Below are positions 12,161 to 44,727 of a stretch of DNA of 61,032 nt, piece by piece (the first letter of the stretch is position 1; each line of letters starts with the position of its first letter). Below the pieces are notes generated by a model. The model saw nothing but the letters and a program-made list of their open reading frames with translations. It had not been told where the DNA came from and ran no database searches. A program made the translations under genes and the position numbers. This DNA is from an uncultured Bacteroidota bacterium (lineage in GTDB: Bacteria; Bacteroidota; Bacteroidia; Flavobacteriales; Flavobacteriaceae): positions 1 through 61,032 of the forward strand of contig CABYEA010000007.1 of assembly GCA_902517895.1 (NCBI GenBank), given 5' to 3'.

Positions 12161-12166
12161 CATTTT

Positions 12167-14984: not shown

Positions 14985-16274
14985 TCATTTTTTTATTAAC
15001 TTAAAAGTTTTACTCTGATTATTTTTCGACAGGGTTAAGAAATATGTACCTTTTTCAGCGTCGGAGAAATTAATCTTTTCAACTCCAGACCCTCTAAATA
15101 TTTCTTTGCCATTAACATCATGTACAACAATGTTTTCCCCACCTTCAATTCCAAAAATATTTATACTTTGATTAAATGGATTGGGGTAAGCTTTGTAGGA
15201 TAAAAAAAATTGATTATAAATACTTAATGCAGAGCCAAACGAAACATTGTCAAAGTAGTAAACCGTATTTTGATTTCCAGAAGACCCAAAATCAAAGAAA
15301 ATTGATGCCATGTCAAAGACAAAACCTGTATTAAGTTCTGCAGTTCCTTCAGACTCATTTGAAAAGTCAAATTCCATTATCTCCCATTCTCCAGCAACTG
15401 TTGTGTTAGTATCGGTTTCAACTGACTGTGTTGGATCTTGTGAGTTTTCGATTTTTAATTTTACAGGAATTCCAACCTCTTCTGATCCAGATACATATAC
15501 GTGCACAAACATCTTAGTGCTTGAATTAGTAATTGGGATATCATTTAAAAAACCTACGCCCGACCCAATCGTAACTCCAGCCCAAGGTTCAGCAACGCTA
15601 TTTTTTTCAACTCTTGCATAGTTTCCTTCAACCGTTTCCAAAATTGTTGAAGGACCATTTCCTCCAAAATCAGTAAGAACATAATATACGCTTGGATCTT
15701 CAAAAGTTACTGGAAGGTCCATTTCGCTAAGTCCTCCACTTGGATCACTTTGATAAATATCATCATAATAAAATGTTGAATCTGCAGTGCCATCACCAAT
15801 ATTTCCAAAATCAAACATTAATACAAGCTTTCTGTATGTGTTGGATGGTTCACCGGAAAAATCCCAAGATAAGATTTCCCATTCATCCGTTTTCGTGGTA
15901 TATGCATCTCTTTCGGTAGCAGGCTCAGAAGGAAAATCTCCGATATCGCCTTCAATTTTAAATTTGACCATTAGACCAGGGTAAGGTGACAACACCCTCA
16001 TGTTTAATGTGTTATTGGTGGAAAAGTCTAAATAATTATCAAGCTCAATATAAGTTCCTGCCCAAATATCTCCCTCGTCTCTAATGACTACCCCAACATA
16101 CTCACTAGGATTATCATTATCAATTTGCGGATTATAAACAACATAACCTGATCCACCGTTAAAATGAACTATGTCTTCATTGGAGATTTGATCGTTCTCA
16201 AAATTAATAGGTAATTCTATTTGTCCAAAAACCATATTAAAAAAAACAAAAGGAAGAGTTAATAATTTTTTCAT
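14985..16274 (-). CDS. T9SS-secreted protein with two carbohydrate-binding-like beta modules
   Basis: 429 aa. A signal peptide (1-17) is followed by two similar beta-rich modules, about 20-180 and 185-345. They share the order WAGTYI/WAGVTI, VKFKIE/VKLKIE, EWEILSWDFS/EWEIMEFDFS, MFDFG/FFDFG and FYYDD/YYFDN. This indicates an internal duplication of a jelly-roll domain like those attached to marine laminarinases and other glycan-active enzymes. A T9SS sorting domain starts at YKAYPNPFNQ (360-429), so the protein should be surface-exposed. No catalytic residues are recognised. It faces susC across a 226-bp shared promoter region and is probably a glycan-capture protein of the locus. Confidence 0.7.
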   Translation of the reverse strand: MKKLLTLPFVFFNMVFGQIELPINFENDQISNEDIVHFNGGSGYVVYNPQIDNDNPSEYVGVVIRDEGDIWAGTYIELDNYLDFSTNNTLNMRVLSPYPGLMVKFKIEGDIGDFPSEPATERDAYTTKTDEWEILSWDFSGEPSNTYRKLVLMFDFGNIGDGTADSTFYYDDIYQSDPSGGLSEMDLPVTFEDPSVYYVLTDFGGNGPSTILETVEGNYARVEKNSVAEPWAGVTIGSGVGFLNDIPITNSSTKMFVHVYVSGSEEVGIPVKLKIENSQDPTQSVETDTNTTVAGEWEIMEFDFSNESEGTAELNTGFVFDMASIFFDFGSSGNQNTVYYFDNVSFGSALSIYNQFFLSYKAYPNPFNQSINIFGIEGGENIVVHDVNGKEIFRGSGVEKINFSDAEKGTYFLTLSKNNQSKTFKLIKK

Positions 16275-16500
16275 TAAATAAAAATAAATAAAAATAAAAT
16301 GCTTGCAATATATTAATAAAAGATTGCACCTCTTTTATGTCATATATGTTATTCAAAATATTTTCTTAAAAAGTCTTTTTTCTACAACAGAAAGCGTGTT
16401 TTTTTAATAAATGATCAAAAAAAAGCTGTATTTGTTGTTATTTTTTTTCAAAATAAAGCTATAATGTTATCTTTAACCACAATAAAAATATTAACCAACC
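16275..16500. promoter_or_regulatory. Divergent intergenic region between the T9SS protein and susC
   Basis: 226 bp of very AT-rich DNA that must hold both promoters. An inverted repeat TGCAAT (16304-16309) and ATTGCA (16323-16328), with a 13-bp spacer, is a weak operator candidate; six-base arms are not rare in a region of this size. The sequence ATTAACCAACC sits directly before the susC ATG. A related AATCAACC precedes the CBM gene at 30468. No exact TAnnTTTG box was found for susC. Confidence 0.35.
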
Positions 16501-19500
16501 ATGAAAAAATTACTTTTAGTACTTATTTTATTTCCGATTTTTGTTTTTTCTCAGACGAAAACGATTTCGGGATCTGTAAATGATGAAAATAACCTTCCAC
16601 TCGTTGGGGTTAATATCACTGTACAGAATTCTAATATTGGTGCACTAACAGATTTTGACGGCAACTATTCTATAATAATTCCCTCTGAAAAGCCAAAGGT
16701 TCTTATATTTTCTTACCTGGGCTATTCAACACAGGAAGTTGATGTCTCTTTGACTGACAGTGTTTCTGTAATGATGATCCCCGACCTTGAGCAGCTTGAA
16801 GAAGTCGTGGTTATAGGTTATGGTTCGGTTCTGAAAAAAGACTTAACAGGCTCATTGTCACAGGTTGAAGTTGATCAAGAAGTTGCAAATCAATCCAATT
16901 CTGTGGATCAGTTATTGCAGGGAAGAGCGGCAGGAGTTCAAGTGATTCAAAATTCAGCCACACCTGGAGCTGGAATCAGTGTTAAGATCAGAGGAACTAA
17001 TAGTCTAAGAGGAAACAACGAGCCACTATATGTTATTGATGGGGTAATTATTTCATCTGCAGGTGAGGATGTATTGCCCGCTGGTGTAGGAAATTCTGGT
17101 CAAGAAAGTCAAAACGGGCTAAGTGGAATTAACCCAAGAGATATTGAAAGCATACAGGTATTAAAGGACGCATCTGCTACTGCAATATATGGTTCAAGAG
17201 GAGCAAATGGCGTTGTATTAATTACAACCAAAAAAGGAAAGTCTGGCAGAATAAATATAGAAACTTTTTCTAATACCTCTGTAAGAGTCATTTCCAAAAA
17301 ATACAATGTTCTAGATCCTTATGGTTATGCTGAATATGTAAATGAAGTAAGGGCAAATGCTGGTGAAGGTCCTCGATATTTTGTAGATGATAATTATGGA
17401 ATTTATGGAGTAGACAACGATGGCACAATTTCAGGAACTGTCGCTAAATCATTTAATTGGCAAGATGAAATATACAGAAGCGGAATTAGCCGAAAAGTTG
17501 GTGGATCTGCTTCAGGAGGTACAGATAATGGAAATTATTATATATCCGCTGGATTTGATGATCAAGAGGGGATAGTTCCAACTTCTTCATTCAAGAGTGG
17601 TGATATGCGAATTAATTTTAACCAGGATTTAAATGACAAACTAATCCTTGAGGCCCGAATGAGCGGCTACATTAGTTCAACAAATTTTGCTGAAAGTGGC
17701 GACCTACTTGGTGGATCTAATCAAAGTTTTATTAAAAACCTGATCTCCTTTAGACCAATTATCGATGAAGAGTTTGAGGATATTGGTGAAGATCTTGAGC
17801 TTTCAAATCCTTATTCCTGGGTAAATGACTTTGAAGATATTTCAAAGGAAAGCAGGTATATTGGAAATCTTGCTCTAACTTACAAGCTACCTGTTCAAGG
17901 GCTTAGATATCAGGTTAAGGTTGGGGGAAACATAAGAACTAAAGAGAGGAGAAGATTTTTTGGAACTACTACTTGGCTGGGGAGTAATGCTAACGGCGCT
18001 TTACAGATAACAGGATTAAATAATTCCTCTTTCCAGGTTGATAATTTCTTGAGATTTAACAGAACTTTTAACAGAAAACACAGAATTAACAGTTTATTAG
18101 GTCTTACGTACGATGTTCGTAAAGTTTCGAATAATATATATGCAGTTGAGGACTTTGTTACAACTCAATTTATGACTCAAAATCCGGCATACGGAAATGT
18201 TATTACCAGGCCTTTAACTTACATAAAGGGTGATCAGCAAATCTTTTCACTATTAGGACGTGTAAACTACACCTATGACAACACTTATATTTTCACTGCT
18301 AGTATTAGAAAAGACGGGGTCTCTAAATTTGCTGATGGCAATAAATACGGTGTATTCCCCTCATTTGCTTTTGCGATGAATATGCATAATGAAATAGATT
18401 TTAAATATTTGGATGAACTTAAGTTAAGATTTGGATGGGGTCAAATCGGTAATCATGGAATTGGATCTTACGGAACCCTTTCTAATTATGGGGTTTCTGA
18501 AAATCTTTATTCAAATTCTGATGGAGGCACGAATGTCCCAATAATTCTTCAGAATATTGCTAATCCAGATTTAACATGGGAAACTACAACCCAGGCAAAT
18601 TTAGGACTAGATTTCGCAACCGTAAACGACAGGTTTTCAGGAACGATTGATGTGTATCATAAAAAAACCACTGATCTATTACAAAGAGTAAACATTCCAA
18701 CATCATCGGGATTTTCAAGTATTTTATCAAATCAAGGAGGTATATTAAATGAAGGGCTGGAGTTATCCCTAGACTACAACCCAATATCAAAAGAAAATTT
18801 TAATTTTTCAGTTGGCGGAAATATAGCATTTAATAAAACTAAAATATCAAATCTTCAAGCTCAACCTTTAGAAGACTTCTATATTGATGGCGTTGCAGAA
18901 CAAAGAAGATTTTACTTTGGGTCAAATATTAGTAGAGGAGCAATATTTCAATATCCTGCAAATGTATTTGTGGAGGGTGAGGAAACAAGTCTTTTCTATG
19001 GTTTTGAAACTGACGGTATTTATCAAACAGGCGATATATTGTTACCGACTTTTGGTCCGGAGACCGCATCACCAGGTGATGTTAGAATCGTAGATCAAAA
19101 TGGTGATGGGCAAATTGATATAAATGATAGAACCTTTATAGGAAACCCTAACCCAGATTTTATTTATGGGTTTAATTTTAATTTAAACTATAAGAGATTT
19201 TCTGCCAATATTTTATTTAATGGAGTATACGGTAATGATATAGTGAATGGAAATTTGCTGCAATTAAATAATGCTGAGGCTCTTACATATTTGAATATAT
19301 TACCTGACGCTTATTATAGTGCATGGAGGCCAGATGCCCAAACCAATTTATTTCCAAGAATTGGATACACGACTAATGGCATGCCAGCAATGACAGATAG
19401 GATAATTGAGGACGGGAGTTATTTGCGTTTGAGCAATCTAACTGTAAGCTACGATGTTGATGTTAACAATATTGATTCGATTAGTAATTTAAAGTTTTTC

Positions 19501-19653
19501 ATTGCCGGTCAAAACTTAATTACTTGGACAAATTATAGCGGATATGATCCGGAAATTTCAAGCTTTTTATACACTGGCCTTATAAACGGGGTTGATTGGA
19601 ATGGTCGTGCAAATGCTAAAACATTCCTTTTTGGGGTAAATGTTGGATTTTAA
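16501..19653 (+). CDS. susC: SusC/RagA-family TonB-dependent glycan transporter
   Basis: A 1050-aa outer-membrane protein. Domains are a signal peptide (1-17), a CarboxypepD-like domain (about 20-95, ISGSVNDENNLPLVGVNI ... DFDGNYSI), a TonB box (LEEVVVIGYG, 99-108) and a plug. The plug carries VKIRGTNSLRGNNEPLYVID and the SATAIYGSRGANGVVLITT motif (about 222-240). A long barrel follows, ending in FGVNVGF. With its SusD partner it imports oligosaccharides of the locus substrate into the periplasm using TonB energy. The adjacent enzymes suggest xylan-derived, possibly sulfated, oligosaccharides. SusD follows 27 bp downstream. The symbol denotes family membership, not starch specificity. Confidence 0.95.
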   Translation: MKKLLLVLILFPIFVFSQTKTISGSVNDENNLPLVGVNITVQNSNIGALTDFDGNYSIIIPSEKPKVLIFSYLGYSTQEVDVSLTDSVSVMMIPDLEQLEEVVVIGYGSVLKKDLTGSLSQVEVDQEVANQSNSVDQLLQGRAAGVQVIQNSATPGAGISVKIRGTNSLRGNNEPLYVIDGVIISSAGEDVLPAGVGNSGQESQNGLSGINPRDIESIQVLKDASATAIYGSRGANGVVLITTKKGKSGRINIETFSNTSVRVISKKYNVLDPYGYAEYVNEVRANAGEGPRYFVDDNYGIYGVDNDGTISGTVAKSFNWQDEIYRSGISRKVGGSASGGTDNGNYYISAGFDDQEGIVPTSSFKSGDMRINFNQDLNDKLILEARMSGYISSTNFAESGDLLGGSNQSFIKNLISFRPIIDEEFEDIGEDLELSNPYSWVNDFEDISKESRYIGNLALTYKLPVQGLRYQVKVGGNIRTKERRRFFGTTTWLGSNANGALQITGLNNSSFQVDNFLRFNRTFNRKHRINSLLGLTYDVRKVSNNIYAVEDFVTTQFMTQNPAYGNVITRPLTYIKGDQQIFSLLGRVNYTYDNTYIFTASIRKDGVSKFADGNKYGVFPSFAFAMNMHNEIDFKYLDELKLRFGWGQIGNHGIGSYGTLSNYGVSENLYSNSDGGTNVPIILQNIANPDLTWETTTQANLGLDFATVNDRFSGTIDVYHKKTTDLLQRVNIPTSSGFSSILSNQGGILNEGLELSLDYNPISKENFNFSVGGNIAFNKTKISNLQAQPLEDFYIDGVAEQRRFYFGSNISRGAIFQYPANVFVEGEETSLFYGFETDGIYQTGDILLPTFGPETASPGDVRIVDQNGDGQIDINDRTFIGNPNPDFIYGFNFNLNYKRFSANILFNGVYGNDIVNGNLLQLNNAEALTYLNILPDAYYSAWRPDAQTNLFPRIGYTTNGMPAMTDRIIEDGSYLRLSNLTVSYDVDVNNIDSISNLKFFIAGQNLITWTNYSGYDPEISSFLYTGLINGVDWNGRANAKTFLFGVNVGF

Positions 19654-19680
19654 TTAAAACATAAACTAAATTCTTTAAAC

Positions 19681-21210
19681 ATGAAAAATTTTAAAATAAT
19701 ATTATTATCAATTTTAGGTTTAACCATATCATCATGTGATCTTGATGAAGACCCAATATTTTTGGATTCAAATGCAGTTTACACTGATGTAGCCATTGCT
19801 AAAGCCGCTTTAGATGGAATCTACCAGTCGGTTACATCATATAATGCTCAAGAATTAAGGACCTGGGTAGATCACGGATTTTCAGGATTGTTTTTAACAA
19901 GCAAACAGGCAGGAGGTAATGGTGCTAACAGCATTAACAATCAAACTTTATATTCATTAAAGCCCGCGTATGATGCACCTTCATCAGATTTATGGGGAGG
20001 ATTATATTCTGTTATAGCGAGATGTAATGGAGCTATACATAATATAAATCCTGTCTTGGAACCCACATCCTCGGATGAATCAAGTTTTAATGATATTGCA
20101 GGACAGGCATATTTTGTTAGGGCATGGTCTTACTTTTACTTAACCAGACTTTGGGGAGACATTCCTCTTTGGTTAACATTGCCAGATAATGAAAATTTAC
20201 ATTTATCTACTACTGCATCAAAAGAAGTATATGCCCAAATAATTTCTGATGCTCAAATGGCTATTAGTTTAATGAACAACTCATTTGGTACAGGATACCC
20301 AAAACAATTTGCAGCTAACATGTTATTAGCAAAGGTTTATATGGCTCTAGCTACTAACCCTAATATAAGAGAAGATGGGTTCTCCGAAGCAGATTATTGG
20401 CAAATGGCATATGATCAGGCAATTCAAGTTTATGGAGAGTATGCTTTAGTTGATGATTATGCAAGTTTATTTACCGACTCCAATGAAAATTCATCTGAGT
20501 CAATTTGGGAACTACAGATAAGTCAAGTTGCTGCTAATTCCCAAATGGGAAGAAATTATACTCCTTGGAAATATAAATTAGGGCAGCACTATGGTTGGTC
20601 TAAAGTGAGGTCTGCAGTTTATGATTTTCATGCTTATACTTACCCTGACGATCCAAGAATAGAGGCAACGTATTTATCCTCATGGGTAAGGGCTGATAAT
20701 GGTAACCCTGTAAATGTATATCCCTCTAATCCAAACAGAAATAGTTGGTTTAATTCTCACCCATATCATTTTAAATTTACTGAAAAAGACACACAACATA
20801 ATAACCAGTATAATGATCAAAACTTGATTATCTACAGATATGGGGAGTTATTGATTATGCTTGCAGAAATTTCAAATGAGTTGGATAATGGTCAACAGTT
20901 AGGCTTTGTTAGTGAGTTATTGTCAAGAGCATCTGTATCATTGGCTCCACATGCAGGTTACTATGGGACTCAAGATGAGTTTAGAGATGCAATTATGTAT
21001 GAATATAGATTTGAATTATTGGGTGAGGGTGAAGATTCCCATCATAATAGAAGACGAGGGTTTGATTATTTTTTAAACAAGACGATCAGCCCAATTAATA
21101 ATTGGCCCGGCAACAATAATCATGATATTATTTCTAGTACAGACCCATCACAGGTTATGTTCTTACAAATACCAATAAATGAAATTAATACAAATACACT
21201 GATTGATTAA
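19681..21210 (+). CDS. susD: SusD/RagB-family glycan-binding lipoprotein
   Basis: A 509-aa surface lipoprotein with a lipobox at Cys19 (ISSCDL). The family's TPR-type helices are recognisable: AGQAYFVRAWSYFYLTRLWG (about 140-160), the AANMLLAKVYMAL helix, and the C-terminal IYRYGELLIMLAEISNEL and YEYRFELLGEGEDSHHNRRR motifs. It caps the SusC barrel and captures oligosaccharides. The spacing (27 bp) and order susC-susD define the core of a polysaccharide utilization locus. The symbol denotes family membership. Confidence 0.94.
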   Translation: MKNFKIILLSILGLTISSCDLDEDPIFLDSNAVYTDVAIAKAALDGIYQSVTSYNAQELRTWVDHGFSGLFLTSKQAGGNGANSINNQTLYSLKPAYDAPSSDLWGGLYSVIARCNGAIHNINPVLEPTSSDESSFNDIAGQAYFVRAWSYFYLTRLWGDIPLWLTLPDNENLHLSTTASKEVYAQIISDAQMAISLMNNSFGTGYPKQFAANMLLAKVYMALATNPNIREDGFSEADYWQMAYDQAIQVYGEYALVDDYASLFTDSNENSSESIWELQISQVAANSQMGRNYTPWKYKLGQHYGWSKVRSAVYDFHAYTYPDDPRIEATYLSSWVRADNGNPVNVYPSNPNRNSWFNSHPYHFKFTEKDTQHNNQYNDQNLIIYRYGELLIMLAEISNELDNGQQLGFVSELLSRASVSLAPHAGYYGTQDEFRDAIMYEYRFELLGEGEDSHHNRRRGFDYFLNKTISPINNWPGNNNHDIISSTDPSQVMFLQIPINEINTNTLID

Positions 21211-21267
21211 ATTTTGAAATAACATTTTTAGCTGATAATTTTAAGGTTAAACCTTATTCAAAATATT

Positions 21268-23430
21268 ATGCACATGGGAAAGTTATTACCAGTATTTATA
21301 TGTAGTATATTATTCCACTCGATAATCTCTCAAAATCAATTACCTCTAGCAAATGGGTTTTTTGAGGATGTTGAAAACAACAATTTTCTATATTGGAGTC
21401 ACCAAGCTATTGAAGGAGGAGATGCTGCATATTCAATTGAATCTGAGAATTTAATTCAAGGAAGTACTAAAGCTTTAAAATGCCAAGTCAACTCCCTTGG
21501 ACAAAATGGATGGCATGTAAGCTCAATAAGCCAATATCCATTTGAAGTTATTGCTGGGCAAAAATATACAGTTACCTTTTATGCTAAGGTTGAGGGAGCT
21601 GACTCAAGACAGATTAAAGTTGTATTTCAGTCTGACGTTTCTGGAAGTTACCAAGGACAAAATATTTGGATCACCAATGAATGGAAAAGATACACTCACA
21701 CCTTCAATGTGGAGCATTCTAGTGAAAATAATACCATTAGATTTTGGTATATGCAGCCAGATGTTACATATTTTTTGGATGAAGTAAGTGTATCACCAGG
21801 TGATAGAATAATATTTGATCCCCTTTATAAGCTACAGACAGTAGACGGTTTTGGCGCAGGAATTAAAAGGAGAACGGAACAATTATACTCCTTAAACGAA
21901 TCATTTAGAGAACAGGTAGAACAGTATTGTTTTAATGACCTTGAGGTCAATATGATCCGTTTTTTTGTATATCACGATTTAGAGCCAGAAAATGATAACG
22001 ATGACCCATATCAATTGGATGAATCACAGCTTGATTGGACTAGATATGATAGCAACCCTAATATTTCGAGGACCAGATATATTGGTGAGGCTTTACAAAA
22101 CGCTTTTGACTTAAGTGTATATGGATTTGATCATATTATAGGAAATTGTAACAGTGCACCTGCTTGGCTAAAGACCAACGGACAACATAATAATGGCGGG
22201 ACTTTAATAGCTGGTGGAGAATCAGAGTTCAGCGAATTCTTAATAGCCTTTTTAAACGGTATGCAATCAAGATATGGAATCAATGTTACTGCTATTTCCC
22301 CAACTAATGAACCTGACTTTGAAGTTTCATATGAGTCAATGAATACCACCCCTTCTGAATTATCAAGCATATTAATAAATTTAAATGCCAGGCTATCAAA
22401 TTCTAGTATGGACCATATTAAGATAGTCTCACCCGAGTGTTTTAGGGTCGAGTCCCAAAACTCAAGCACCTCTACCACAAACTATATTAACTCAATGTTT
22501 CAAAATTCAGCAGTTGAAGAGGCTGTAGATATCATTGGCACACACACATATGCGGACCCTAATCATAATGCTAATTGGGCAGCATTAAAAGAGGCTTCAA
22601 ATGGTAAGCCAGTATGGGTTACTGAGTCTGCAAGTCTTAGTAGCACTGATCAATCAATGACAGATGCAGCAAATTACATTAAGTGGATTATAAGGGGTTT
22701 TAATGAGGGGGGAGTTACTGCATATATGCTTCACTTATTTTATGAAGAAGCTGATAATAATGGATACTCAAGCTTAGTTGCATGGACACCTTTAGGCGAA
22801 ATAATTTTGCCAAAAAGATACTTCTCATTTAAGCATTTTACTAATCTTGTTAAGAAAGGTTATAGTTTAATCAGTTCTTACTCTACAGATGAAAACGGAG
22901 TCTATGTTGCAAGTTTTATTTCAGAGGACGAGTCCAATCTAGTGGTTCAAATATTTAATGAGGGAAATGAAAAAGATTTTTCGATAGACATTCCGATTGG
23001 CGCAATATCAGTGGAAACTTTTTTAACCACTAATAATGACTCTGAAGAGTTTTCATCAATGGGTACAAATGAAATAGATTACTATAATAGGTACTTTACA
23101 ACTTTATTACCTGAGTTGTCTTTAACATCCTTGGTTTTTGATATTGACGAATCCCTTTCAGACAGCGATTATGGTTTTACAAACAATAATCATTTTGAGC
23201 TTGAGATATATCCAAATCCGACAGAAGATCAAATTAATTTGATTTTACCAGATCAATCAAATTATAACATTACGATTTTTGATTTAAAAGGTCAAAAAAT
23301 AATTGATGTAATTAATGAAGATAAAGAAGTAATAATTGATATTTCAATTTTAGAAAAAGGCACGTATTTGTTAAATATTAATTCTTTATTAAACCAAAAA
23401 ATAATAACAAAAAAGATAATTAAACAATGA
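21268..23430 (+). CDS. GH30 glycoside hydrolase with N-terminal CBM and T9SS domain
   Basis: 720 aa: a signal peptide (about 1-21), a CBM-like beta-sandwich (about 28-177), a GH30 (alpha/beta)8 barrel (about 185-460) with its side beta domain, and a T9SS sorting domain (645-720, from LEIYPNPTED). The barrel shows the acid/base Glu348 in SPTNEPDF, the nucleophile Glu453 in VWVTESAS, and the GH30-like phrases TVDGFGAGIKRR and DIIGTHTY. Given the xylan enzymes around it, an endo-xylanase-type GH30 (as in subfamilies 7/8) is likely. T9SS delivery places it on the surface for initial attack. The CBM closely resembles the separate protein at 30468. A second Met (residue 3) could be the real start. 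Confidence 0.85.
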   Translation: MHMGKLLPVFICSILFHSIISQNQLPLANGFFEDVENNNFLYWSHQAIEGGDAAYSIESENLIQGSTKALKCQVNSLGQNGWHVSSISQYPFEVIAGQKYTVTFYAKVEGADSRQIKVVFQSDVSGSYQGQNIWITNEWKRYTHTFNVEHSSENNTIRFWYMQPDVTYFLDEVSVSPGDRIIFDPLYKLQTVDGFGAGIKRRTEQLYSLNESFREQVEQYCFNDLEVNMIRFFVYHDLEPENDNDDPYQLDESQLDWTRYDSNPNISRTRYIGEALQNAFDLSVYGFDHIIGNCNSAPAWLKTNGQHNNGGTLIAGGESEFSEFLIAFLNGMQSRYGINVTAISPTNEPDFEVSYESMNTTPSELSSILINLNARLSNSSMDHIKIVSPECFRVESQNSSTSTTNYINSMFQNSAVEEAVDIIGTHTYADPNHNANWAALKEASNGKPVWVTESASLSSTDQSMTDAANYIKWIIRGFNEGGVTAYMLHLFYEEADNNGYSSLVAWTPLGEIILPKRYFSFKHFTNLVKKGYSLISSYSTDENGVYVASFISEDESNLVVQIFNEGNEKDFSIDIPIGAISVETFLTTNNDSEEFSSMGTNEIDYYNRYFTTLLPELSLTSLVFDIDESLSDSDYGFTNNNHFELEIYPNPTEDQINLILPDQSNYNITIFDLKGQKIIDVINEDKEVIIDISILEKGTYLLNINSLLNQKIITKKIIKQ

Positions 23431-26484: not shown

Positions 26485-26491
26485 ATTTATA

Positions 26492-27925: not shown

Positions 27926-27934
27926 AATTAAGTC

Positions 27935-30442: not shown

Positions 30443-30467
30443 TATTATATAAACTAAATAATCAACC

Positions 30468-31004: not shown

Positions 31005-31013
31005 ACAACTAAT

Positions 31014-32126: not shown

Positions 32127-32129
32127 TAT

Positions 32130-33563: not shown

Positions 33564-33574
33564 TCGAATTTATT

Positions 33575-35811: not shown

Positions 35812-35892
35812 ATTTACTATTTAACTTTAAATAAAGTTATGATAATTATTAAATTTTCATGATATTTAATAATAAGAAATTGACCAAAAATC

Positions 35893-37797
35893 ATGATTCA
35901 GCTTCGTCTATTTAACTATTTTTTATTTATATCCTTAACATCATCAGTATTTACCACCCAATCTCAGGAAACGGAAAAACCAAATATTTTATTTATTTCG
36001 GTTGATGACCTAAAACCAAGTATTGGAAGTTTTGGTGATAAGTTTGCGGTAACACCAAATATTGATGAACTTTCAAAAGAAGCAACAGTTTTTTTAAACA
36101 ATCAAAATCAACTTGCTATTTGTGCTGCTTCAAGGGTCAGCTTTTTGACTGGCTTAAGACCTGATAAAACAAAAGTTTGGGATCTGAAAACAAAGATGAG
36201 AGATATGAACCCAGAGGTTTTAACACTACCTGAACATTTTAAAAATAACGGATACCAGACAATTGGCGTTGGAAAAATATATGACCCAAGAGCAGTCGAT
36301 GGCGGGAGAGACAGAAGATCATGGTCAGTTCCTTTTGTAACCCAAAATCAATTAACATTTTCTGATGGATATAGTTTTCCATCTGGGGGTTTTTATCAAG
36401 GTAAAGAGAATAGAGCTATAAGAGCAAAGCTTAGACAAGAGGCTATTGATAAAGGAGTTAACAACTTGAATAAGTACGAGTCAGATAGATTTAAGCCACC
36501 ATATGAAAACGCTGATGTTCCAGACGGAGCCTATATGGATGGGGCAATTGCCAATAGAGCTATCGATTTAATTGATCAAATGGATAGTTCACAACCATTT
36601 TTCTTGGCTGTTGGTTTTTTAAGACCCCACCTTCCTTTTAATGCACCAACAAAGTATTGGAATATGTATCAAGAAGATGAAATTCAATTAGCCGAGTTTC
36701 AAACTAAATCCAAAAATCCTGTAGATATTGCTTATAAAGGTGGATGGGAAATAAACACATATAAAGCCCCTGGAATTGAATATATAGAAAACGATGAAGG
36801 GCTTTTGATTCTCCCTGATGAAATCCAAAGAAAATTAATTCACGGTTATTATGCTGCAACAAGTTATATTGATGCACAGATAGGTAAAGTTATTGCCAAA
36901 TTAAAAGAAAAAGGATTAGATAAAAATACAATTATCGTTTTATGGGGTGATCATGGATTTCATCTAGGTGATCACAGTATGTGGACAAAACATACCAACT
37001 TTGAGCAATCAACTAGATCTCCATTATTAATCAAAGACCCAAGAATTAAAAAAACAGTAAGTGTAAATTCACCTACTGAATTTATTGACGTATTTCCGAC
37101 ACTTTGTGACTTGGCAGAATTAGAAATTCCCAAAGTACTTGACGGAATAAGTTTAAGACCTCAAATAATGGGAGAACAAACAACATCAAAAATATTTGCT
37201 GTCAGTCAATATCCAAGACATGGAAACATTATGGGCTATAGTTTTAGAACTAACAGACACCGATATACCGTGTGGGTAAAAAATAAAAAGAGCACTGAAC
37301 CAATATATGTTGAAGACATATTTGCAGAAGAATTATATGATTATGACAACGACCCCCTTGAAACTGCTAATATCATTAATTACCCTGAGCAACAAAGAAT
37401 CAAGACTACATTTCAAACTTTAGCAGCTAGATTTTTTAATACCCAAATTGTTAATGAACCTGAGCCAGTCACTAATAAATTAAACAAACAATATATAAAA
37501 GCAGCACCAAATAATAAATGGGCAAATGAACGATCAAAAGTTATAACTAGATATGTAGCTACTGAAATGCAGATGAATAAAAATCAAGCTAAATTTTTAC
37601 AAGAAACTCTGTACGATAAGTATGCAAGAAACAATGATCTTACATCTTCTAAAGGTCTTTTGAAGGATCAAATTGAAGAAATATACAGAGAAACTTTTTC
37701 AATGTCTAGCCAACAATTAATGACCAAATTTACAAAGAAACAATTTGAGAGAATTAGCGCACTGGAAAGAGAAATGATGCAACAACTAAGGAATTAA
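35893..37797 (+). CDS. S1-family sulfatase with long helical C-terminal extension
   Basis: 634 aa with a signal peptide (about 1-24). The metal motif FISVDDLKP supplies Asp38/Asp39, and the formylglycine motif ICAASRVSFLTG supplies Cys77 (C-x-A-S-R). LRPHLPFNAPTKYWNMY and WGDHGFHLGDHSMWTKH place it in the iduronate-2-sulfatase-like branch with the gene at 26492. The catalytic unit ends near 505. Residues about 520-634 are an additional, highly charged, predicted all-helical domain (MQMNKNQAKFLQETLYDKYA ... FTKKQFERISALEREMMQQL). The spaced helices resemble Spy/CpxP-like periplasmic proteins. Such a fusion is not one I know for sulfatases. The esterase gene follows 8 bp later. Confidence 0.9.
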   Translation: MIQLRLFNYFLFISLTSSVFTTQSQETEKPNILFISVDDLKPSIGSFGDKFAVTPNIDELSKEATVFLNNQNQLAICAASRVSFLTGLRPDKTKVWDLKTKMRDMNPEVLTLPEHFKNNGYQTIGVGKIYDPRAVDGGRDRRSWSVPFVTQNQLTFSDGYSFPSGGFYQGKENRAIRAKLRQEAIDKGVNNLNKYESDRFKPPYENADVPDGAYMDGAIANRAIDLIDQMDSSQPFFLAVGFLRPHLPFNAPTKYWNMYQEDEIQLAEFQTKSKNPVDIAYKGGWEINTYKAPGIEYIENDEGLLILPDEIQRKLIHGYYAATSYIDAQIGKVIAKLKEKGLDKNTIIVLWGDHGFHLGDHSMWTKHTNFEQSTRSPLLIKDPRIKKTVSVNSPTEFIDVFPTLCDLAELEIPKVLDGISLRPQIMGEQTTSKIFAVSQYPRHGNIMGYSFRTNRHRYTVWVKNKKSTEPIYVEDIFAEELYDYDNDPLETANIINYPEQQRIKTTFQTLAARFFNTQIVNEPEPVTNKLNKQYIKAAPNNKWANERSKVITRYVATEMQMNKNQAKFLQETLYDKYARNNDLTSSKGLLKDQIEEIYRETFSMSSQQLMTKFTKKQFERISALEREMMQQLRN

Positions 37798-37805
37798 GCA
37801 ACATA

Positions 37806-38684
37806 ATGTATTCCTATAGACTTGTACTTTTTTCATTTTTTTTAACAGTCACTCAATTTGTCTATTCGCAAAATAAAAGTGTCAATATAGAATCCGAAAA
37901 GGTTATATATAAGTCAATTGATAATATTGATTTGAACCTTTATATATTTAGACCTACAGATTTTGATAATTCAAAGATATATAATAGTATTATATTTTTT
38001 CATGGCGGGGCTTGGAATACTCAAAATACTAGCCAGTTTAAAAGACATTCAATGTACTTTGCTTCCCGTGGTATTGTTGCAATTACAGCTGAATACAGGG
38101 TTACAAGTATTCACAACTCAACACCTTTTCAATCTTTAGAAGATGCAAAGTCTGCCATTAGATACGTTAGATTAAATGCTAAATCTTTATCTATAAATCC
38201 TGATAAAATTGCTGTCAGTGGTGGTTCAGCAGGGGGCCATCTTGCAGCCGCAGCCGCAAATATTTCCAAATATGATAATATTAATGAGAATCTCAAAATA
38301 AGCTCAAAACCAAATCTTTTAATTTTATATAATCCAATATTGGATACTACACCAAATGCTTGGGGATATGGTTCGTTTATTAGAAGAATAGGAAATAAGA
38401 CAACAGATAACCCAAAAGAGATTTCCCCAATTCATCATATTTCTAAAGATACTCCTCCAACTATTATTTTAACCGGAACTAAAGACAATAAAGTGCCAGT
38501 AAAAAAAATAAATAAATACAAGGAAATAATGAGTTCAAAAGATGTCCGATGTGATGTAATTTTTTATCAAGATGCTGAACATGGTTTTTTTAATAGAGGA
38601 GATTATTTTATAGATACAGTTTTTCAGACAGATATTTTTTTAAAATCTAATTGGTATTTATCAGGGCCACCAACAATAAAATAA
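37806..38684 (+). CDS. Secreted alpha/beta-hydrolase, probable carbohydrate esterase
   Basis: 292 aa with a signal peptide (about 1-21). The oxyanion motif FFHGGAW (HGG at 66-68), the nucleophile Ser141 in VSGGSAGGHLA, Asp227 in LTGTKDNKVP and His259 in DAEHGFF complete the catalytic triad of a hormone-sensitive-lipase/BD-FAE-type esterase. In xylan loci such enzymes remove acetyl (or feruloyl) groups. Acetyl-xylan esterase is the best guess here, though the substrate is inferred from context. It is paired with the preceding sulfatase. Its stop directly abuts the stop of the convergent symporter gene. Confidence 0.82.
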   Translation: MYSYRLVLFSFFLTVTQFVYSQNKSVNIESEKVIYKSIDNIDLNLYIFRPTDFDNSKIYNSIIFFHGGAWNTQNTSQFKRHSMYFASRGIVAITAEYRVTSIHNSTPFQSLEDAKSAIRYVRLNAKSLSINPDKIAVSGGSAGGHLAAAAANISKYDNINENLKISSKPNLLILYNPILDTTPNAWGYGSFIRRIGNKTTDNPKEISPIHHISKDTPPTIILTGTKDNKVPVKKINKYKEIMSSKDVRCDVIFYQDAEHGFFNRGDYFIDTVFQTDIFLKSNWYLSGPPTIK

Positions 38685-40337
38685 TTAGCCAGTAAAATAG
38701 TTTAAAATTGCAACAACTATGATTACTAGAATCACTGATAAAATCAAATCTACTTTTTCATAGCTATTTTTATTTTCTAACTTCTGCTCCTTTGTTAATG
38801 TCCCAAATGATAGACCTGCAATTTTACTATATTCGGGTTCAGTCGTAGAAAGCGTCACACTTACACACAATAGAATTGAAAAAACAAACATCAGTATTGC
38901 CATATGTGAAAAATTAATTGTAGCAAAAACAAACATATAACTATCAACTATTGTATCTGATGATATTTCAGGCTGAAAATAAATTTCTGAACTAAGCCTC
39001 ATAATTAATAGAATTAAACCAGCCATCAGAGTTGTTATAGCTGCTTTTGAATTCACCCTTTTCCATAGAATACCTAAAATGAAAACAGCAGCTACTGGTG
39101 GGGCAATGTAGGATTGAACATTTTGCAGATACTGATACATAACACCACCACCGATTTTTTCCATAATAGGAATCCAAATTATTCCAAGAATCACTATTAC
39201 AGTAGTAGCTAGCTTACCAATATTTAATAATTTTTTCTCTGATTCATTAGGTTTTAATTTTTTGTAAATATCGATTGTAAATATCGTTGAGCATGAATTA
39301 AATACTGATGCAAGTGAGCTCATAAGTGCTGCCATAAGACCTCCTGCAACTAAGCCTTTGAGCCCAACAGGAAGTAAAGTTTTAACAAGCATCGGGAAGG
39401 CTCTATCCGCTTTTTCAACAGAAAACACTTCTGGATTTTGAATTGATAATGCAAATGCAATAATTCCAGGTATCAAGAAAATGAATATAGGCAATAGCTT
39501 TAAATATGCTCCAAAAATAGCACCACGTCTTCCAATTTTAATATTGTTGGCAGCAAGGGTTCTTTGAACAATATATTGATCTGTACACCAATACCAAACA
39601 CCAACTATTGTACCACCAAATAATAATCCAGTCCATGGAAAATCAGGATCTGACATTGGTCTCCACATGTTAAAATGATCAGGACTTGCAGCAACAACGG
39701 TGTTTCTTAATTCAACCCATCCACCGACTTCTTGTAACCCAAGATAAGTAATTATTATTGACCCTAGAATAAGAATAATAGCCTGCAGAGTTTCGGTGTA
39801 AATTACAGCTTTCATTCCTCCAATCACAGTATATATTCCGGTAAAAACAACTACTCCAATAGCTCCGTACCAAAAGGGTATTCCCAGCAATTCAGAAACA
39901 ACAATTCCACCTGCGTAAATAGTAACCGAAACTTTTGTTAATATATATGCAATTAGAGAAAAAAGAGATAAAAACCATCTTGATTTTGAATCAAATCGTT
40001 TCTCCAAAAATTCAGGCATTGTAAAAGCTCCACTCCTAATATAAAATGGTAAAAACAACCAGCCCAATAACAAGACTATCCATGCATGCAGTTCGTAATG
40101 AGCCATAGGAGTTCCAGATTCAAATCCAGTTCCAGCAAGTCCAACCACATGCTCTGACCCGATATTAGAGGCAAAAATTGAAGCACCAATTACAAACCAC
40201 CCAACATTTCTTCCAGCCAGAAAATAGTCTTCTGTGTTATTATTTTTTTGTAAAACAACCCAGACTGCAACAAGAATCAGTGCAAGAAAATATATTCCTA
40301 AGACAATCCAATCTAACCCCTCTAATACTGTTGTCAA
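38685..40337 (-). CDS. Sodium/solute symporter, SSS (SGLT-like) family
   Basis: A 550-aa protein with about 14 membrane segments. The N-terminal NTEDYFLAGRNVGWFVIGAS, IGSEHVVGLAGTG and TMPEFLEKRF motifs are characteristic of SGLT-type sugar carriers. So are AVIYTETLQAIILILGS and ALMSSLASVFNSCSTIFT. It is the last gene after xylB-xylA, starting 6 bp after xylA, so its substrate is probably xylose or another xylan-derived monosaccharide taken up with sodium, as suits a marine cell. It complements the GPH transporter, which probably handles oligosaccharides. Confidence 0.9.
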   Translation of the reverse strand: MTTVLEGLDWIVLGIYFLALILVAVWVVLQKNNNTEDYFLAGRNVGWFVIGASIFASNIGSEHVVGLAGTGFESGTPMAHYELHAWIVLLLGWLFLPFYIRSGAFTMPEFLEKRFDSKSRWFLSLFSLIAYILTKVSVTIYAGGIVVSELLGIPFWYGAIGVVVFTGIYTVIGGMKAVIYTETLQAIILILGSIIITYLGLQEVGGWVELRNTVVAASPDHFNMWRPMSDPDFPWTGLLFGGTIVGVWYWCTDQYIVQRTLAANNIKIGRRGAIFGAYLKLLPIFIFLIPGIIAFALSIQNPEVFSVEKADRAFPMLVKTLLPVGLKGLVAGGLMAALMSSLASVFNSCSTIFTIDIYKKLKPNESEKKLLNIGKLATTVIVILGIIWIPIMEKIGGGVMYQYLQNVQSYIAPPVAAVFILGILWKRVNSKAAITTLMAGLILLIMRLSSEIYFQPEISSDTIVDSYMFVFATINFSHMAILMFVFSILLCVSVTLSTTEPEYSKIAGLSFGTLTKEQKLENKNSYEKVDLILSVILVIIVVAILNYFTG

Positions 40338-40343
40338 AATATA

Positions 40344-41657
40344 TTATAAATACTGGTTCAAAATATTTTCAAACAACTCCTGCTTTCCACTTTCGGGACT
40401 TATTTCGTTTGCATCTTTAGCAATATTATATAAATCATTCAACTCCAATTTTCCATTTTCAAAGTCCTTTCCTTTACCACTATCAAAAGTTTCATATCTT
40501 CTTTTTCTCAAATCAGAATAGGATGATGATGTCATAATTTTATCAGCTGCAATTAGTGCACGTGCAAAAGTATCTGCACCTCCAATATGTGCATAAAATA
40601 TATCCTCGATATCTGTAGAGTTTCTTCTAATTTTAGCATCAAAGTTTATTCCTCCGCCCTTAAGTCCACCTGCTTGAAGGAATACTAACATTGCCTCAGT
40701 TGTCTCAAGAATGTTATTTGGAAATTGGTCAGTATCCCAACCGTTTTGGTAGTCACCTCTATTGGCATCAATACTTCCAAGCATCCCTGCTTTTGCGGCC
40801 ACAGCAAGCTCGTGCTGCATAGTATGCTGTGCAAGGGTTGCATGATTAACTTCAATATTTAATTTAAAGTCTTTATCAAGTCCATATTCTTTAAGAAATC
40901 CAATTGCAGTTGCAGAGTCAAAATCATATTGATGCTTCATTGGCTCCATTGGTTTTGGTTCAATGAAAAAAGTTCCTTTGAATCCTTGAGATCTAGCATA
41001 ATCTTTAGCCATGGTTAAGAACCTAGCCATGTGATCAAGTTCTCTTCCCATGTCAGTATTTAACAAAGACATGTAGCCTTCTCTTCCACCCCAGAACACA
41101 TAATTTTCTCCACCTAAATTAATTGTTGCATCTAAGGCTAATTTTACCTGAGCACCAGCATGAGCAACTACATTAAAATTTGGATTAGTAGCCGCCCCAT
41201 TCATATATCTTGGGTTTGAAAAACAGTTTGCTGTTCCCCAAAGAAGCTGAATTCCACTTTCCTCTTTTTTATTTTTTATGTAGTCAACTATTGTTTCGAG
41301 TCTTTTTTCTGACTCTGAAAACGTTGTAGCTTCCTTTACTAAATCAAAATCGTGGAAACAGAAATAATCAAACCCTATTTTGCCTATAAATTCAAATGCA
41401 GCATCAGCTTTATCTTTTGCAGCTTGAATCGGGTCAGGATTTTTATCCCATTCAAAGTTCAATGTTCCTGGCCCAAAAGGATCAGATCCAACCCCACAGA
41501 ATGAATGCCAATAAGCAATTGCAAATTTGAAATGTTCTTTCATTGTTTTTCCAGCAACTACTTTACTAGGATCATAATATTTAAAAGCAAGAGGGTTGTC
41601 TGAGTCAGCACCCTCGTATTGAATTTTTTCTATCCCCTTATAATATTCTTTACTCAT
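40344..41657 (-). CDS. xylA: Xylose isomerase
   Basis: A 437-aa class II xylose isomerase that converts D-xylose to D-xylulose in the cytoplasm. Recognisable motifs are [19 protein letters not shown] (about 47-65), the catalytic YFCFHDFD (His102, Asp105), FWGGREGY, the metal-binding [31 protein letters not shown] and GSIDANRGD. Length is normal. The gene lies 7 bp after xylB and 6 bp before the SSS symporter. This fixes xylose as an end product of the locus. Confidence 0.97.
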
Positions 41658-41664
41658 AATTATA

Positions 41665-43149
41665 TTATTTGTTTTTTAATATTCCTTGTAAATCTTCTTT
41701 CCATCTAGAATATGCATCTTCATATTCAGATGCATTATTAAGTGGTAAAAATGTCATTACGTGATCGTTTTTAGTTATTTTTTTTCTAAATGAATCCAAA
41801 TTATCATTCATAACTCCTGATGCTCTGGCAGCACCAAACGCACCAGTTGTATTATAGATTTCAATTTCATGACCTATTAAGGTAGCAACAGTATTTGCAA
41901 AAATTTTAGATCTAAATAAATTATCATTACCGGCCCTAACCACATTGATTAACGCATTGTCATTTTTTAAAATTTCCATACCATACATAAACGAGAAAGC
42001 AATCCCTTCTAATGATGATCTGAATAAATGACCATGGCTATGTTGATTCAAATTAATATTACATATATGTGTTCCTATATTTTTATTGTTTAACATTCTT
42101 TCAGCTCCATTACCAAAGGGTATAAGCGAAATTCCTTCAGACCCAACTGCAACACTTGATGCTTCTTCATTCATCTTTTCATATGATTTGCCAATACTAT
42201 GATTTCTTAGCCATCTGTACTGTATACCAGCTCCGTTAATACAAAGTAATTTTCCAATGGATTTGTTATTATCATTATAATTAACATGAGCAAAATGATT
42301 TATTCGAGACGGTTCCTTAGAATTAATATCATTTGTAATTGAATAAATAACCCCTGAAGTTCCACCTGATGCCGCTACCTCACCATTATCAAAAACATTT
42401 AAAGCAAGAGCATTATTTGGCTGATCACCAGCCCTGTAGGTAATTGGAATTCCGATATTTAATCCAGTTTCATCAGATGATATTGAATGGGTAACGCCTT
42501 GATTCGTAAAGTTGTCAACTATATCAGGTGTTAGACTTGGATTGATACCATAGAAATCTAGCAACCAATTTGCAGTTTTATTGTTTTTATAATCCCAAAT
42601 TATTCCTTCAGACAAACCATTTCTTGTTGTGTTAATTTCTCCAGTTAATTTATATGCGATAAAATCTCCGGGCAACATATACTTATGTATTTTTTCATAG
42701 ACCTCGGGTTCATTTTCTTTTACCCATTTTAACTTTGATGCCGTAAAGTTTCCAGGCGAATTTAGCAGATGTGACATGCATTTATCCTCACCCAACTTTT
42801 CATAAGCATCATTTCCAATATTAACGGCTCTGCTATCACACCAAATTATAGAATCTCTAAGAGGGCACCCATTTTTATCCACTATGACTAGTCCATGCAT
42901 CTGATATGAAATACCAATTGAAATAATTTTTTTAGGGTCAATATTAGATTCTTTACAAACCCTTTTTATAGCAGTGCATGTGTAATTCCACCAGAGATTT
43001 GGATCTTGCTCCGCCCAGTCATTTTTTAATGAGCTTATACTCATTTCATTTTTTGGCTCATGTACACTTTGAATACTCTTGCCTGTTTTTGCTTCAACTA
43101 AAGCCGCCTTTACAGAGGAACTACCAACATCTAGACCCAGATAATACAT
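41665..43149 (-). CDS. xylB: Xylulokinase
   Basis: A 494-aa FGGY-family kinase phosphorylating D-xylulose with ATP. The phosphate-1 loop is [16 protein letters not shown] (4-19). The substrate-side [15 protein letters not shown] contains the xylulokinase-typical [16 protein letters not shown] and [14 protein letters not shown] provide the catalytic Asp and adenosine regions. It precedes xylA by 7 bp. The 70-bp upstream gap to the formylglycine-generating enzyme gene contains a 15-bp palindrome, a candidate operator. Confidence 0.94.
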
Positions 43150-43198
43150 TTGAAATTAGTCAGGTTTTTTTATCAATATTAAATATAAAAAAATAGAG

Positions 43199-43213
43199 TA
43201 TTAAACTTTAATA
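43199..43213. promoter_or_regulatory. Perfect 15-bp palindrome upstream of xylB
   Basis: The sequence is TATTAAA-C-TTTAATA, two 7-bp arms around one central base, in the 70-bp gap between the formylglycine-enzyme stop and the xylB start, about 50 bp upstream of the xylB ATG. Position and symmetry suit an operator for a dimeric regulator. The pure A/T arms make a chance occurrence possible. Confidence 0.35.
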
Positions 43214-43219
43214 AAACAG

Positions 43220-44272
43220 CTATTTATTTAGAAGCATTCCTGGTGTTACAACGGTTCTAAATCCAGTATGGTCAGAGCCTGAATCTATACTGACTCCCAT
43301 CCTTGCGGAGATTCTGTAGCTTGCACAGTATGAATCATGACATAAAAAAGAACCACCCTTCATTACATATTGTTTTTCAAACGGGTTACTTGGGTTATAA
43401 CAACTACTAGCGCCTTTGAGATTTTTTAGTTCAGTTTCAGTGCTTATTTCTGAATAGTAATTGACGTTGAATAAATCATCTGTAATTTCCCAAACATTTC
43501 CAACCATATCAAATATACCAATGCTATTTGCAGGAAAAGATTTTACTGGGGCAACCATCTCATATCCATCAATTGATTCATTTTTAATAGGAAAATTACC
43601 TTGCCAGGTATTTGCATTGGAGTTCAATAAATTTACATCATCTCCCCAAGGAAAAACGGCATTTTTATAATTTCCTTGAGCCGCTGATTCCCATTCAGCT
43701 TCAGTGGGTAATCTTCTGTTAGCCCAATCACAGAAGGCTATTGCATCTTCGTATGCAATATGAACCACTGGAAAATTACCCTTATTCTCAATGCTTGATC
43801 CTGGCCCTTTTGGCGCTTTCCAATTTGCACCTGTTTGCCATCTCCACCATTGAAAATAATTTTCCATATTCTCAACGGTTTTTATTTGATCATTAAATAT
43901 TAAACTACCGGGCTGTAAAATCGAGTCGTGTGGTTTTGGTGTTCCAACTGGAAGATTTTTTTTCATTTCTTCCCAATCTATTTCCCTTTCAGCTACTGTA
44001 ATATATCCCGTTTCATCAACAAACTTTTCGAATTGATTATTTGTAACTTCAGTTGCATCAATAAAAAAACCATCAATGTAAACTTCGTGGGGTGGTTTTT
44101 CCCTCATAATTGCAAAAGCGTCATTATTCTTTGCACCCTTTGTGTAAGATTTACCCTCAACCCAAATCATTCCTTCAGGATTAATGAATGAGCTCTCAAC
44201 GGTTTTAGTTACATCACCACAAGAAAAAAGTAATGTAAAAATTAGCAAAAAAAATCTTGATAAGTAATGCAT
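43220..44272 (-). CDS. Formylglycine-generating enzyme (sulfatase-activating), lipoprotein
   Basis: 350 aa with a lipobox at Cys18 (LLFSCGD). The SUMF1/FGE fold is complete: MIWVEGKSYTKG, VYIDGFFIDATEVTNNQF, RRLPTEAEWESAAQG, NTWQGNFP, GIFDMVGNVWEIT and KGGSFLCHDSYCASYR. The last motif holds both active-site cysteines (Cys311 and Cys316, the spacing of human SUMF1 Cys336/Cys341), so it should be catalytic and not a structural GldJ/GldK-type relative. The enzyme uses O2 and copper to oxidise the C-x-P/A-S-R cysteine of sulfatases to formylglycine. Four such sulfatases are in this locus. The lipoprotein signal implies action outside the cytoplasm. Its ATG overlaps the upstream gene's stop by 1 bp. 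Confidence 0.92.
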   Translation of the reverse strand: MHYLSRFFLLIFTLLFSCGDVTKTVESSFINPEGMIWVEGKSYTKGAKNNDAFAIMREKPPHEVYIDGFFIDATEVTNNQFEKFVDETGYITVAEREIDWEEMKKNLPVGTPKPHDSILQPGSLIFNDQIKTVENMENYFQWWRWQTGANWKAPKGPGSSIENKGNFPVVHIAYEDAIAFCDWANRRLPTEAEWESAAQGNYKNAVFPWGDDVNLLNSNANTWQGNFPIKNESIDGYEMVAPVKSFPANSIGIFDMVGNVWEITDDLFNVNYYSEISTETELKNLKGASSCYNPSNPFEKQYVMKGGSFLCHDSYCASYRISARMGVSIDSGSDHTGFRTVVTPGMLLNK

Positions 44273-44727
44273 TAATTTCTACTAAATTTTGCAAAATCAG
44301 GATGAAAATAGAAAGGTAACCCGAAAGGTTTTACAAATTCTTTTAATTCATCAGATGCAGTACCATAAACATCTATTTTGTTAATCGTAAAATGTTCCAT
44401 GAATTTATCAAAATGGGTTTCTAGTGGTCCTCCCTCAGAAATATTTTTACCGTGCTGCATCATCGCATTTCCGTCTAAGTATCTTTCAATTAAAATTACT
44501 TTATCGCCTGAATTGTAAAAACCCCATCCAAGAGAGTTGGGCTCATTCATGTCAATAGCATCTGTGTAATATTTAGAAAACTCAGCAATATCATCTTCTG
44601 ATTTCCCCTCATTTGAATTCATATCCACTACAAAGATTATTTCATTTTTATTGTATTGACTTTTTTCAGGTGTTTCACAATTGAATAAAAGCGCTGCTAA
44701 AACGATTGTAAAAAGAATTTTCTTCAT
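44272..44727 (-). CDS. Lipoprotein with an antibiotic-biosynthesis-monooxygenase-like fold
   Basis: 151 aa with a lipobox at Cys17 (LLFNCET). The body (DAIDMNEPNSLGWGFYNSGD, VILIERYLDGNAMMQHGKNI, ETHFDKFMEHF) follows the dimeric ferredoxin-like ABM pattern seen in small monooxygenases and heme-degrading proteins. Members often act as dimers; no catalytic residues can be named. It is the first gene of the operon with the formylglycine-generating enzyme (1-bp overlap) and then xylB-xylA. Coupled translation suggests a shared extracytoplasmic function, possibly in oxidation chemistry, but this is inference. Confidence 0.65.
   Translation of the reverse strand: MKKILFTIVLAALLFNCETPEKSQYNKNEIIFVVDMNSNEGKSEDDIAEFSKYYTDAIDMNEPNSLGWGFYNSGDKVILIERYLDGNAMMQHGKNISEGGPLETHFDKFMEHFTINKIDVYGTASDELKEFVKPFGLPFYFHPDFAKFSRN

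Follow-up and report, generated by a model that had tools for sequence, protein, structure and literature searches.

Putative polysaccharide utilization loci (PULs) for sulfated xylan have been described before in marine flavobacteria. Krueger 2019 (PMC6794258) presents two such gene patterns in metagenome-assembled genomes of Formosa, Aurantivirga and Polaribacter, with signs of expression. As described there, pattern 1 consists of a GH10 carrying a sulfatase domain, a GH3 and two further sulfatases, and pattern 2 of a GH30, three sulfatases, a PL9 with CBM22, a GH10 and a GH43_1 (PMC6794258). A sulfated β-xylan is also the predicted substrate of PUL136 in Formosa sp. Hel3_A1_48 (Kappelmann 2018, PMC6298971). 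According to these two papers, loci of this predicted kind are among the main PUL types of flavobacteria in blooms, and metaproteomes of sea water contained their SusC proteins (PMC6794258, PMC6298971). In open-licence papers we found no biochemical proof of such PULs, be it of the enzymes or of the polymer. Here we consider a locus at 14985–44727 of the window, a stretch of 61,032 bases at the start of contig C7 (CABYEA010000007.1) from an uncultured Flavobacteriaceae bacterium with a genome of 1.26 Mb, 68% complete. In our judgement this locus is probably a PUL for a sulfated β-xylan, whose xylose would most likely be sulfated at O-2.

The likeness to the published pattern 2 is close. All of its gene types, as the paper names them, lie within 21268–34609 in one direction, the PL9 by a partial Pel9A-like match, the GH30 by phmmer and the GH43 at the family level. 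In contrast to the published pattern, the block in the window runs on into a second one, with GH10b, Sulf4, an esterase, an SSF symporter, XylA, a XylB-like kinase and the formylglycine-generating enzyme (FGE). Pattern 1 as described is absent from the window, where Sulf4 is unfused and a different, divergent GH10 (GH10b) stands beside it. However, it is found in five of the 16 stretches from the same genus (L110, L111, L112, L114 and L115), where the sulfatase at the Sulf4 position is fused to a GH10. The GH3 at 49012 adds to this likeness, and a GH3 is common to pattern 1 and to two loci with related SusC proteins, L124 and L125. With PUL136, described as a xylose-rich PUL with sulfatases (PMC6298971), the locus shares the predicted substrate. 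The gene pattern for sulfated xylan was already predicted from sequence in 2018–2019, and the additions made here are the position of the sulfate and the altered GH10 lineages.

The first-pass annotation of this DNA had listed SusC/SusD, two GH10, a GH43, an esterase, a xylose isomerase and two sugar transporters, and all of these are present as open reading frames with family support (Table 1). Its xylulokinase has XylB as the best match, but at a score below the cut-off of that model. Three genes were missing from that list: the β-helix/CBM22 protein, the CBM4-like protein and the GH3. Within 16501–44272 the order is SusC, SusD, GH30-like, Sulf1, Sulf2, Sulf3, β-helix/CBM22, CBM4-like, GH10a, GPH and GH43, all on the plus strand, followed by GH10b (minus), Sulf4 and the esterase (plus), and SSF, XylA, the XylB-like kinase and FGE (minus). 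Adjacent SusC and SusD together with degradative carbohydrate-active enzymes are what defines a PUL in Bacteroidota. The sulfated marine xylan that had been suggested as the substrate is still the best reading, because a xylan core (GH10, GH43, GPH, XylA, XylB-like) is combined with four formylglycine-type sulfatases and FGE, and because the same gene patterns have been assigned to sulfated xylan in print. It is further favoured by a block conserved in the genus, a xylanase-type CBM22, the sulfatase-GH10 fusions, the nearest characterised sulfatases, which are a xylose-2-sulfatase or 2-O-sulfatases, and the closest SusC relatives, which adjoin GH3, GH10 and several sulfatases.

We now consider the sulfatases. 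All four match PF00884 (121–153 bits) and have Cys-type motifs (CAPSR, CAPSR, CGASR and CAASR), each of the S1 formylglycine form C-x-[PA]-S-R, so that the count of four claimed at first stands, as does the activating enzyme, which is an FGE by PF03781. The FGE carries two cysteines in GGSFLC....C, which we take to be the active-site pair, and the NCBIfam models for other members of the FGE fold all stay below their cut-offs on this protein. The subfamily labels used below denote the nearest solved sequence and not a SulfAtlas placement. Sulf3 and Sulf4 are closest to 6HHM, with 300 and 276 bits, respectively. For Sulf2, S1_8A (9bb9), S1_8B and S1_8C lead with 239, 181 and 169 bits, and the best non-S1_8 protein has 113. 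The structure 6HHM is that of P18_S1_7, described as an endo-2-sulfo-D-xylose sulfatase within the pathway for ulvan (PMC9096561). The S1_8 members treated in PMC12549532 act at position 2, namely on galactose-2-sulfate, xylose-2-sulfate and N-sulfoglucosamine, and an exo-xylose-2-sulfatase is among them. Three of the four sulfatases are hence pointing to a 2-O-sulfate, the S1_7-like ones less surely, because S1_7 also contains the galactose-4-sulfatase cgsB (PMC9096561). As the rest of the locus handles xylose, the group removed would be xylose-2-sulfate.

There are points that weigh against a sulfated xylan, some of which come from these same proteins and others, given further below, from the GH30-like enzyme and from related loci. 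S1_8 also contains galactose-2-sulfatases and a sulfamidase (PMC12549532), and neither S1_7 nor S1_8 as a subfamily fixes the sugar acted on; the galactose-4-sulfatase in S1_7 counts here as well. Sulf1 does not point clearly to one subfamily, since S1_8A leads with 126 bits and the next other protein has 115. The second-best PDB relative of both Sulf3 and Sulf4 is iduronate-2-sulfatase, with 178 and 229 bits, respectively. Moreover, characterised xylose-2-sulfatases act on ulvan, not on xylan.

This raises the possibility that ulvan itself is the target, with its xylose-2-sulfate removed by the S1_7 and S1_8 sulfatases. Both 6HHM, as the closest S1_7 with a characterised activity, and one characterised S1_8 are reported to act on that very group, and set against the ulvan PUL of Formosa agariphila (P18_S1_7, P32_S1_8; PMC9096561), Sulf3 and Sulf4 are closest to P18_S1_7 and Sulf2 is closest to S1_8. 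However, GH88, the unsaturated glucuronyl hydrolase expected of an ulvan PUL, gives no match above the cut-off in any of 21 genomes of the genus, all incomplete (56–86% complete), and matches below it in five; GH10, GH43 and CBM22 are found instead. The Pfam scans, which covered 20 genes of 14985–44727 and 30 window proteins in all, contained no rhamnosidase family (no genome-wide search for this family and no search for ulvan lyases was made). Single absences in incomplete genomes mean little, while 21 together mean more. As ulvan would also leave two GH10, a GH43 and a CBM22 unexplained, we consider it a very improbable substrate.

The conservation of the locus bears on whether the sulfatases and the xylan genes belong together. 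Searching 84,980 species genomes with the GH30-like protein, an approach that picks up only close relatives, yielded 22 loci, of which 17 (L001–L017, assigned by coordinates to genomes of the window's genus) have the block, four (L018–L021) are of a sister type and one (L022, titled Akkermansia) has the GH30 only. The AG- isolates among the relatives are presumably single-cell genomes of the surface ocean. The order SusC-SusD-GH30-Sulf1-Sulf2-Sulf3 is kept in 17 of the 22 loci, and with orthologues counted at at least 50% identity, each of the six is present in all 17 genus loci. The β-helix protein is present in 16/17 and the small CBM protein in 15/17, the gaps being contig ends (L014 for both, L008 for the latter). 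A strong GH10b match is found in 17 of the 21 genus genomes, own included, and the downstream set comprises 17 stretches around GH10b, 16 from the genus and L118 of the sister type. Since the upstream loci were picked by the GH30 match and the downstream stretches by the GH10b match, these two genes are present by construction. Sulf4 occurs in 16/16 genus stretches, and the esterase, SSF, XylA, the XylB-like kinase and FGE in 15/16, the miss being a short contig (L105). Because the order is kept in 17/22 loci and four of the five sulfatase genes detected in the own genome (68% complete) sit here, the grouping is not due to chance.

These counts speak to another scenario, in which an ordinary plant-type xylan locus has had sulfatases inserted without a shared substrate. 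It would account for GH10a, GPH, GH43, XylA and the XylB-like kinase, which make up the standard xylan core, and for the canonical nature of GH10a. It would not, however, account for Sulf1–Sulf3 in every genus locus, Sulf4 in every stretch and FGE in all but one, nor for the fusion at the Sulf4 position in five of 16, and GH115 has no match in the 21 incomplete genomes. We regard this scenario as extremely unlikely. Plant glucuronoxylan as the main target was set aside on the GH115 result.

The GH10 enzymes also bear on a sulfated β-xylan. The fusion frames span 983–994 residues; the sulfatase motif lies at residue 77 or 88, and that of the GH10 nucleophile at residue 900 or 911. Both domains are above the Pfam cut-offs in all five in the genome search, and also in three proteins scanned directly. 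The other 11 genus stretches have Sulf4 unfused, as in the window. In the sister-type L118, a GH10 shares its frame with a partial sulfatase domain, the N-terminal part of the frame not being resolved. The fusions tie an S1_7-type sulfatase to a GH10. GH10b has kept the acid/base and nucleophile Glu pair (NE, TELD) that marks a GH10, and has lost the glycone-subsite motifs.

To put this loss in context, we aligned GH10a, GH10b with three orthologues, the five genus fusions, four sister fusions, two sulfatase-touching GH10s (L124, L125) and 20 of 29 controls (L038, L042, L045–L049, L051 and L052 were left out of the tree). The controls, L024–L052, are the best GH10b matches and not a random sample, and no sulfatase was seen beside any of the 29, within flanks that are short, up to about 1.5 kb and in some cases cut to about 0.1 kb. 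The catalytic glutamates are kept in all rows where they are readable, one row having ambiguous letters. The motif GHxLxW, with the subsite Trp, is present in 29/29 controls and in GH10a (27 of the controls have GHxLxWH by pattern, and L027 and L031 keep GHxLxW by eye), compared to 0/15 sulfatase-linked rows, GH10b rows included; these rows share descent and are not independent counts. The ENxMK block is also altered or missing in them. From xylanase structures, we take both motifs to line the -1/-2 subsites. In the tree, the fusions and the neighbours form one clade (100/100) and GH10b a separate one (100/99).

It is important to note that GH10a is canonical despite lying in the same locus, which limits how the divergence can be read. 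In L130 (G376, a member of the genus, contig C5, 6923–15714) two sulfatases, one of them Sulf3-like, occur together with a GH3 and with two GH10s, one altered (HGPVSP) and one canonical (GHTLIW). The altered GH10 is 2.3 kb from the nearest sulfatase, with the GH3 in between, and the canonical one lies on the opposite side of the sulfatases, just 1.2 kb from them. These two cases indicate that the divergence tracks particular lineages and not mere nearness to sulfatases. We put forward, as a tentative and rather doubtful proposal, that the fused and adjoining GH10s and GH10b may be lineages with glycone subsites remodelled for 2-O-sulfated xylose (sulfoxylanases), paired with S1_7/S1_8 xylose-2-sulfatases, and that this marine flavobacterial genus, whose genomes are small, may be specialised on a diet of 2-O-sulfated β-xylan. 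When 346 genomes of the order were searched with GH10b, nothing close apart from GH10b itself came up, the best match reaching 45 bits.

Two secreted proteins would meet the polymer first. The GH30 of the first-pass annotation finds AcXbh30A (7n6h, 2e-20) and then other GH30 xylanases as its best phmmer matches, which is why we keep the name, as GH30-like. In Pfam, however, no GH30 model matches it; the matches are GH59, a galactosidase family, at 48.5 bits, and a general catalytic core. The β-helix protein is linked to xylan by its CBM22, which is closest to the CBM22s of xylanases (4xup/4xuo). PL9 lyases are recognised by a catalytic Lys and a calcium site on a β-helix. In this protein the Pel9A-like match to PF22842 is partial, covering residues 21–115, no PDB alignment spans the β-helix core, and the structure model, built from 11 related sequences, is weak (mean pLDDT, the predicted local distance difference test, of 51.8), with a Foldseek list headed by CBM22 that does not settle the helix fold. 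A PL9-like lyase role is accordingly putative. In 336 genomes of the order, with two candidates scored in each and an E-value of 1e-15 or better required, this protein has a single relative outside the own genome; it is 33% identical, and no other match to the locus genes was seen around it. The stand-alone CBM4-like protein is 36% identical to the N-terminal domain of the GH30-like enzyme, and its model is weak and β-rich (mean pLDDT 62.5).

Related loci were sought by SusC in the 336 genomes of the order, with two candidates scored per genome. The top two matches outside the own genome, L124 and L125 (43% identity, 847 and 842 bits; next 603), both have SusC-SusD-GH3 followed by several sulfatases and GH10, and L125 contains, in addition, relatives of Sulf2, Sulf3 and the esterase. 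The remaining points on the opposing side come from this group: L124 carries a GH29-type fucosidase (PF01120), the lower-ranked L127 and L128 have no match to the window GH10 (L127 has weak matches to Sulf4 and GH43 only, L128 none to the enzymes), and loci related to this one may target mixed glycans. The substrate could then be a sulfated heteroglycan of mixed composition, in which, for instance, fucose or galactose accompanies β-xylan or xylose branches, and the GH10s would open its xylan part only. Such a glycan would suit the fucosidase beside GH10 and sulfatases in L124, a GH5 within the locus of one scanned relative (L110), a GH53 near another (L102) and the Pfam name GH59. The locus itself is less accommodating, as the GH59 match aside there is no fucosidase or galactosidase family among its 20 scanned genes, and its catabolic genes serve xylose. 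We consider the mixed glycan unlikely.

For the sulfated β-xylan that we prefer, we infer the substrate, the position of its sulfate, and where and in which order the steps take place, as follows. The T9SS (type IX secretion system) tails suggest that the GH30-like and PL9-like/CBM22 proteins act outside the cell, where they would bind and cut the polymer, and SusC/SusD would import the oligosaccharides. By their N-termini, SusD, Sulf2, Sulf3, GH10a and FGE look like lipoproteins, and Sulf1, Sulf4, GH10b and the esterase have hydrophobic signal-like segments by inspection. In the periplasm, the FGE-matured sulfatases (two S1_7-like, one S1_8-like, and Sulf1) would take off sulfate, GH10a would cut unmodified and GH10b modified stretches, and the esterase would take off an ester. 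The acetylation of the xylan claimed at first is possible, on the basis of one BD-FAE-type esterase gene. Xylo-oligosaccharides and xylose would then enter the cytoplasm through the GPH and SSF symporters. There GH43, which lacks a signal segment and is a likely cytoplasmic β-xylosidase, XylA and the XylB-like kinase would lead to xylulose 5-phosphate. The locus makes the earlier substrate prediction testable in terms of O-2 sulfated xylose, two S1_7-like and one S1_8-like sulfatase, and a divergent GH10 expected to prefer sulfated over plain xylan.

Table 1. Genes of the candidate sulfated-xylan locus and its borders, in window coordinates.
Feature	Position	Strand	Support and remarks
T9SS-tailed secreted protein	14985..16274	-	only PF18962 matched; present in 12/17 loci
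SusC-type TonB-dependent transporter	16501..19653	+	TIGR04056 819 bits; 17/17 genus loci L001-L017, 78-85%
SusD-type surface lipoprotein	19681..21210	+	PF14322, PF07980, lipobox; 17/17 loci
GH30-like enzyme, N-terminal CBM4-like domain, T9SS tail	21268..23430	+	phmmer GH30 xylanases; PF18962 tail
Sulf1, S1 sulfatase	23427..24827	+	PF00884; motif CAPSR
Sulf2, S1_8-like sulfatase, lipoprotein	24799..26484	+	9bb9 S1_8A 239 bits
Sulf3, S1_7-like sulfatase, lipoprotein	26492..27925	+	6hhm P18_S1_7 300 bits
Pel9A-like (PL9-like) right-handed β-helix + CBM22 + T9SS tail (putative)	27935..30442	+	PF22842 partial, PF02018, PF18962; 4xup/4xuo
Stand-alone CBM4-like protein, 178 aa	30468..31004	+	1gui CBM4 8e-5
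GH10a, canonical xylanase, lipoprotein	31014..32126	+	PF00331 327 bits; TPENSMKW, GHTLVWH
GPH-type (MFS_2) pentoside/oligosaccharide symporter	32130..33563	+	TIGR00792 324 bits, above cut-off
GH43, without signal peptide	33575..34609	+	PF04616; N-terminus inspected
GH10b, divergent GH10	34600..35811	-	PF00331 125 bits
Sulf4, S1_7-like sulfatase	35893..37797	+	6hhm 276 bits
BD-FAE-type α/β-hydrolase esterase	37806..38684	+	PF20434
SSF sodium/solute symporter, probable sugar importer	38685..40337	-	TIGR00813 388 bits, above cut-off
XylA xylose isomerase	40344..41657	-	TIGR02630 673 bits, above cut-off
FGGY kinase, XylB-like	41665..43149	-	TIGR01312 292 bits, below cut-off 380
Formylglycine-generating enzyme (FGE), lipoprotein	43220..44272	-	PF03781 224 bits
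151-aa lipoprotein, variable part of locus	44272..44727	-	present in 9/16 stretches
GH3, possible accessory enzyme just outside locus range	49012..51210	+	PF00933, PF01915

The Sulf3 start in Table 1 was placed at 26492 and not at 26411, as suggested by the signal peptide. No sensor or regulator families were found among the 20 scanned genes. The gene at 14985–16274 is probably accessory and not core; one of its five gaps (L005) is a contig end. The 151-aa lipoprotein next to FGE is 80–99% identical where present, and gave no Pfam family and nothing convincing among PDB sequences.

Finally, some further genes were seen in and around the locus and its relatives. L001 has a 578-aa T9SS-tailed protein (19755–21491) between the small CBM protein and GH10a that is not in the window, and between Sulf3 and GH30 the sister-type L118 carries a 986-aa protein (9448–12405) that contains a caspase (Peptidase_C14) domain. 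A 663-aa frame lies between GH43 and GH10b in L110 (5450–7438) and L114 (3990–5978), in L110 a T9SS-tailed GH5 by Pfam, and the GH53 of L102 is close to GH3. Outside the locus, a GH2 mannosidase-like enzyme at 57102–59681 of the window perhaps belongs to another pathway. Elsewhere in the own genome (L129, contig C17, 2450–13722), a second SusC, 26% identical to that of the window, is followed by a lipoprotein and secreted proteins; close to the end of this contig lies a GH10 with the canonical motif (GHALIW), and the whole may be a second locus of the xylan type.

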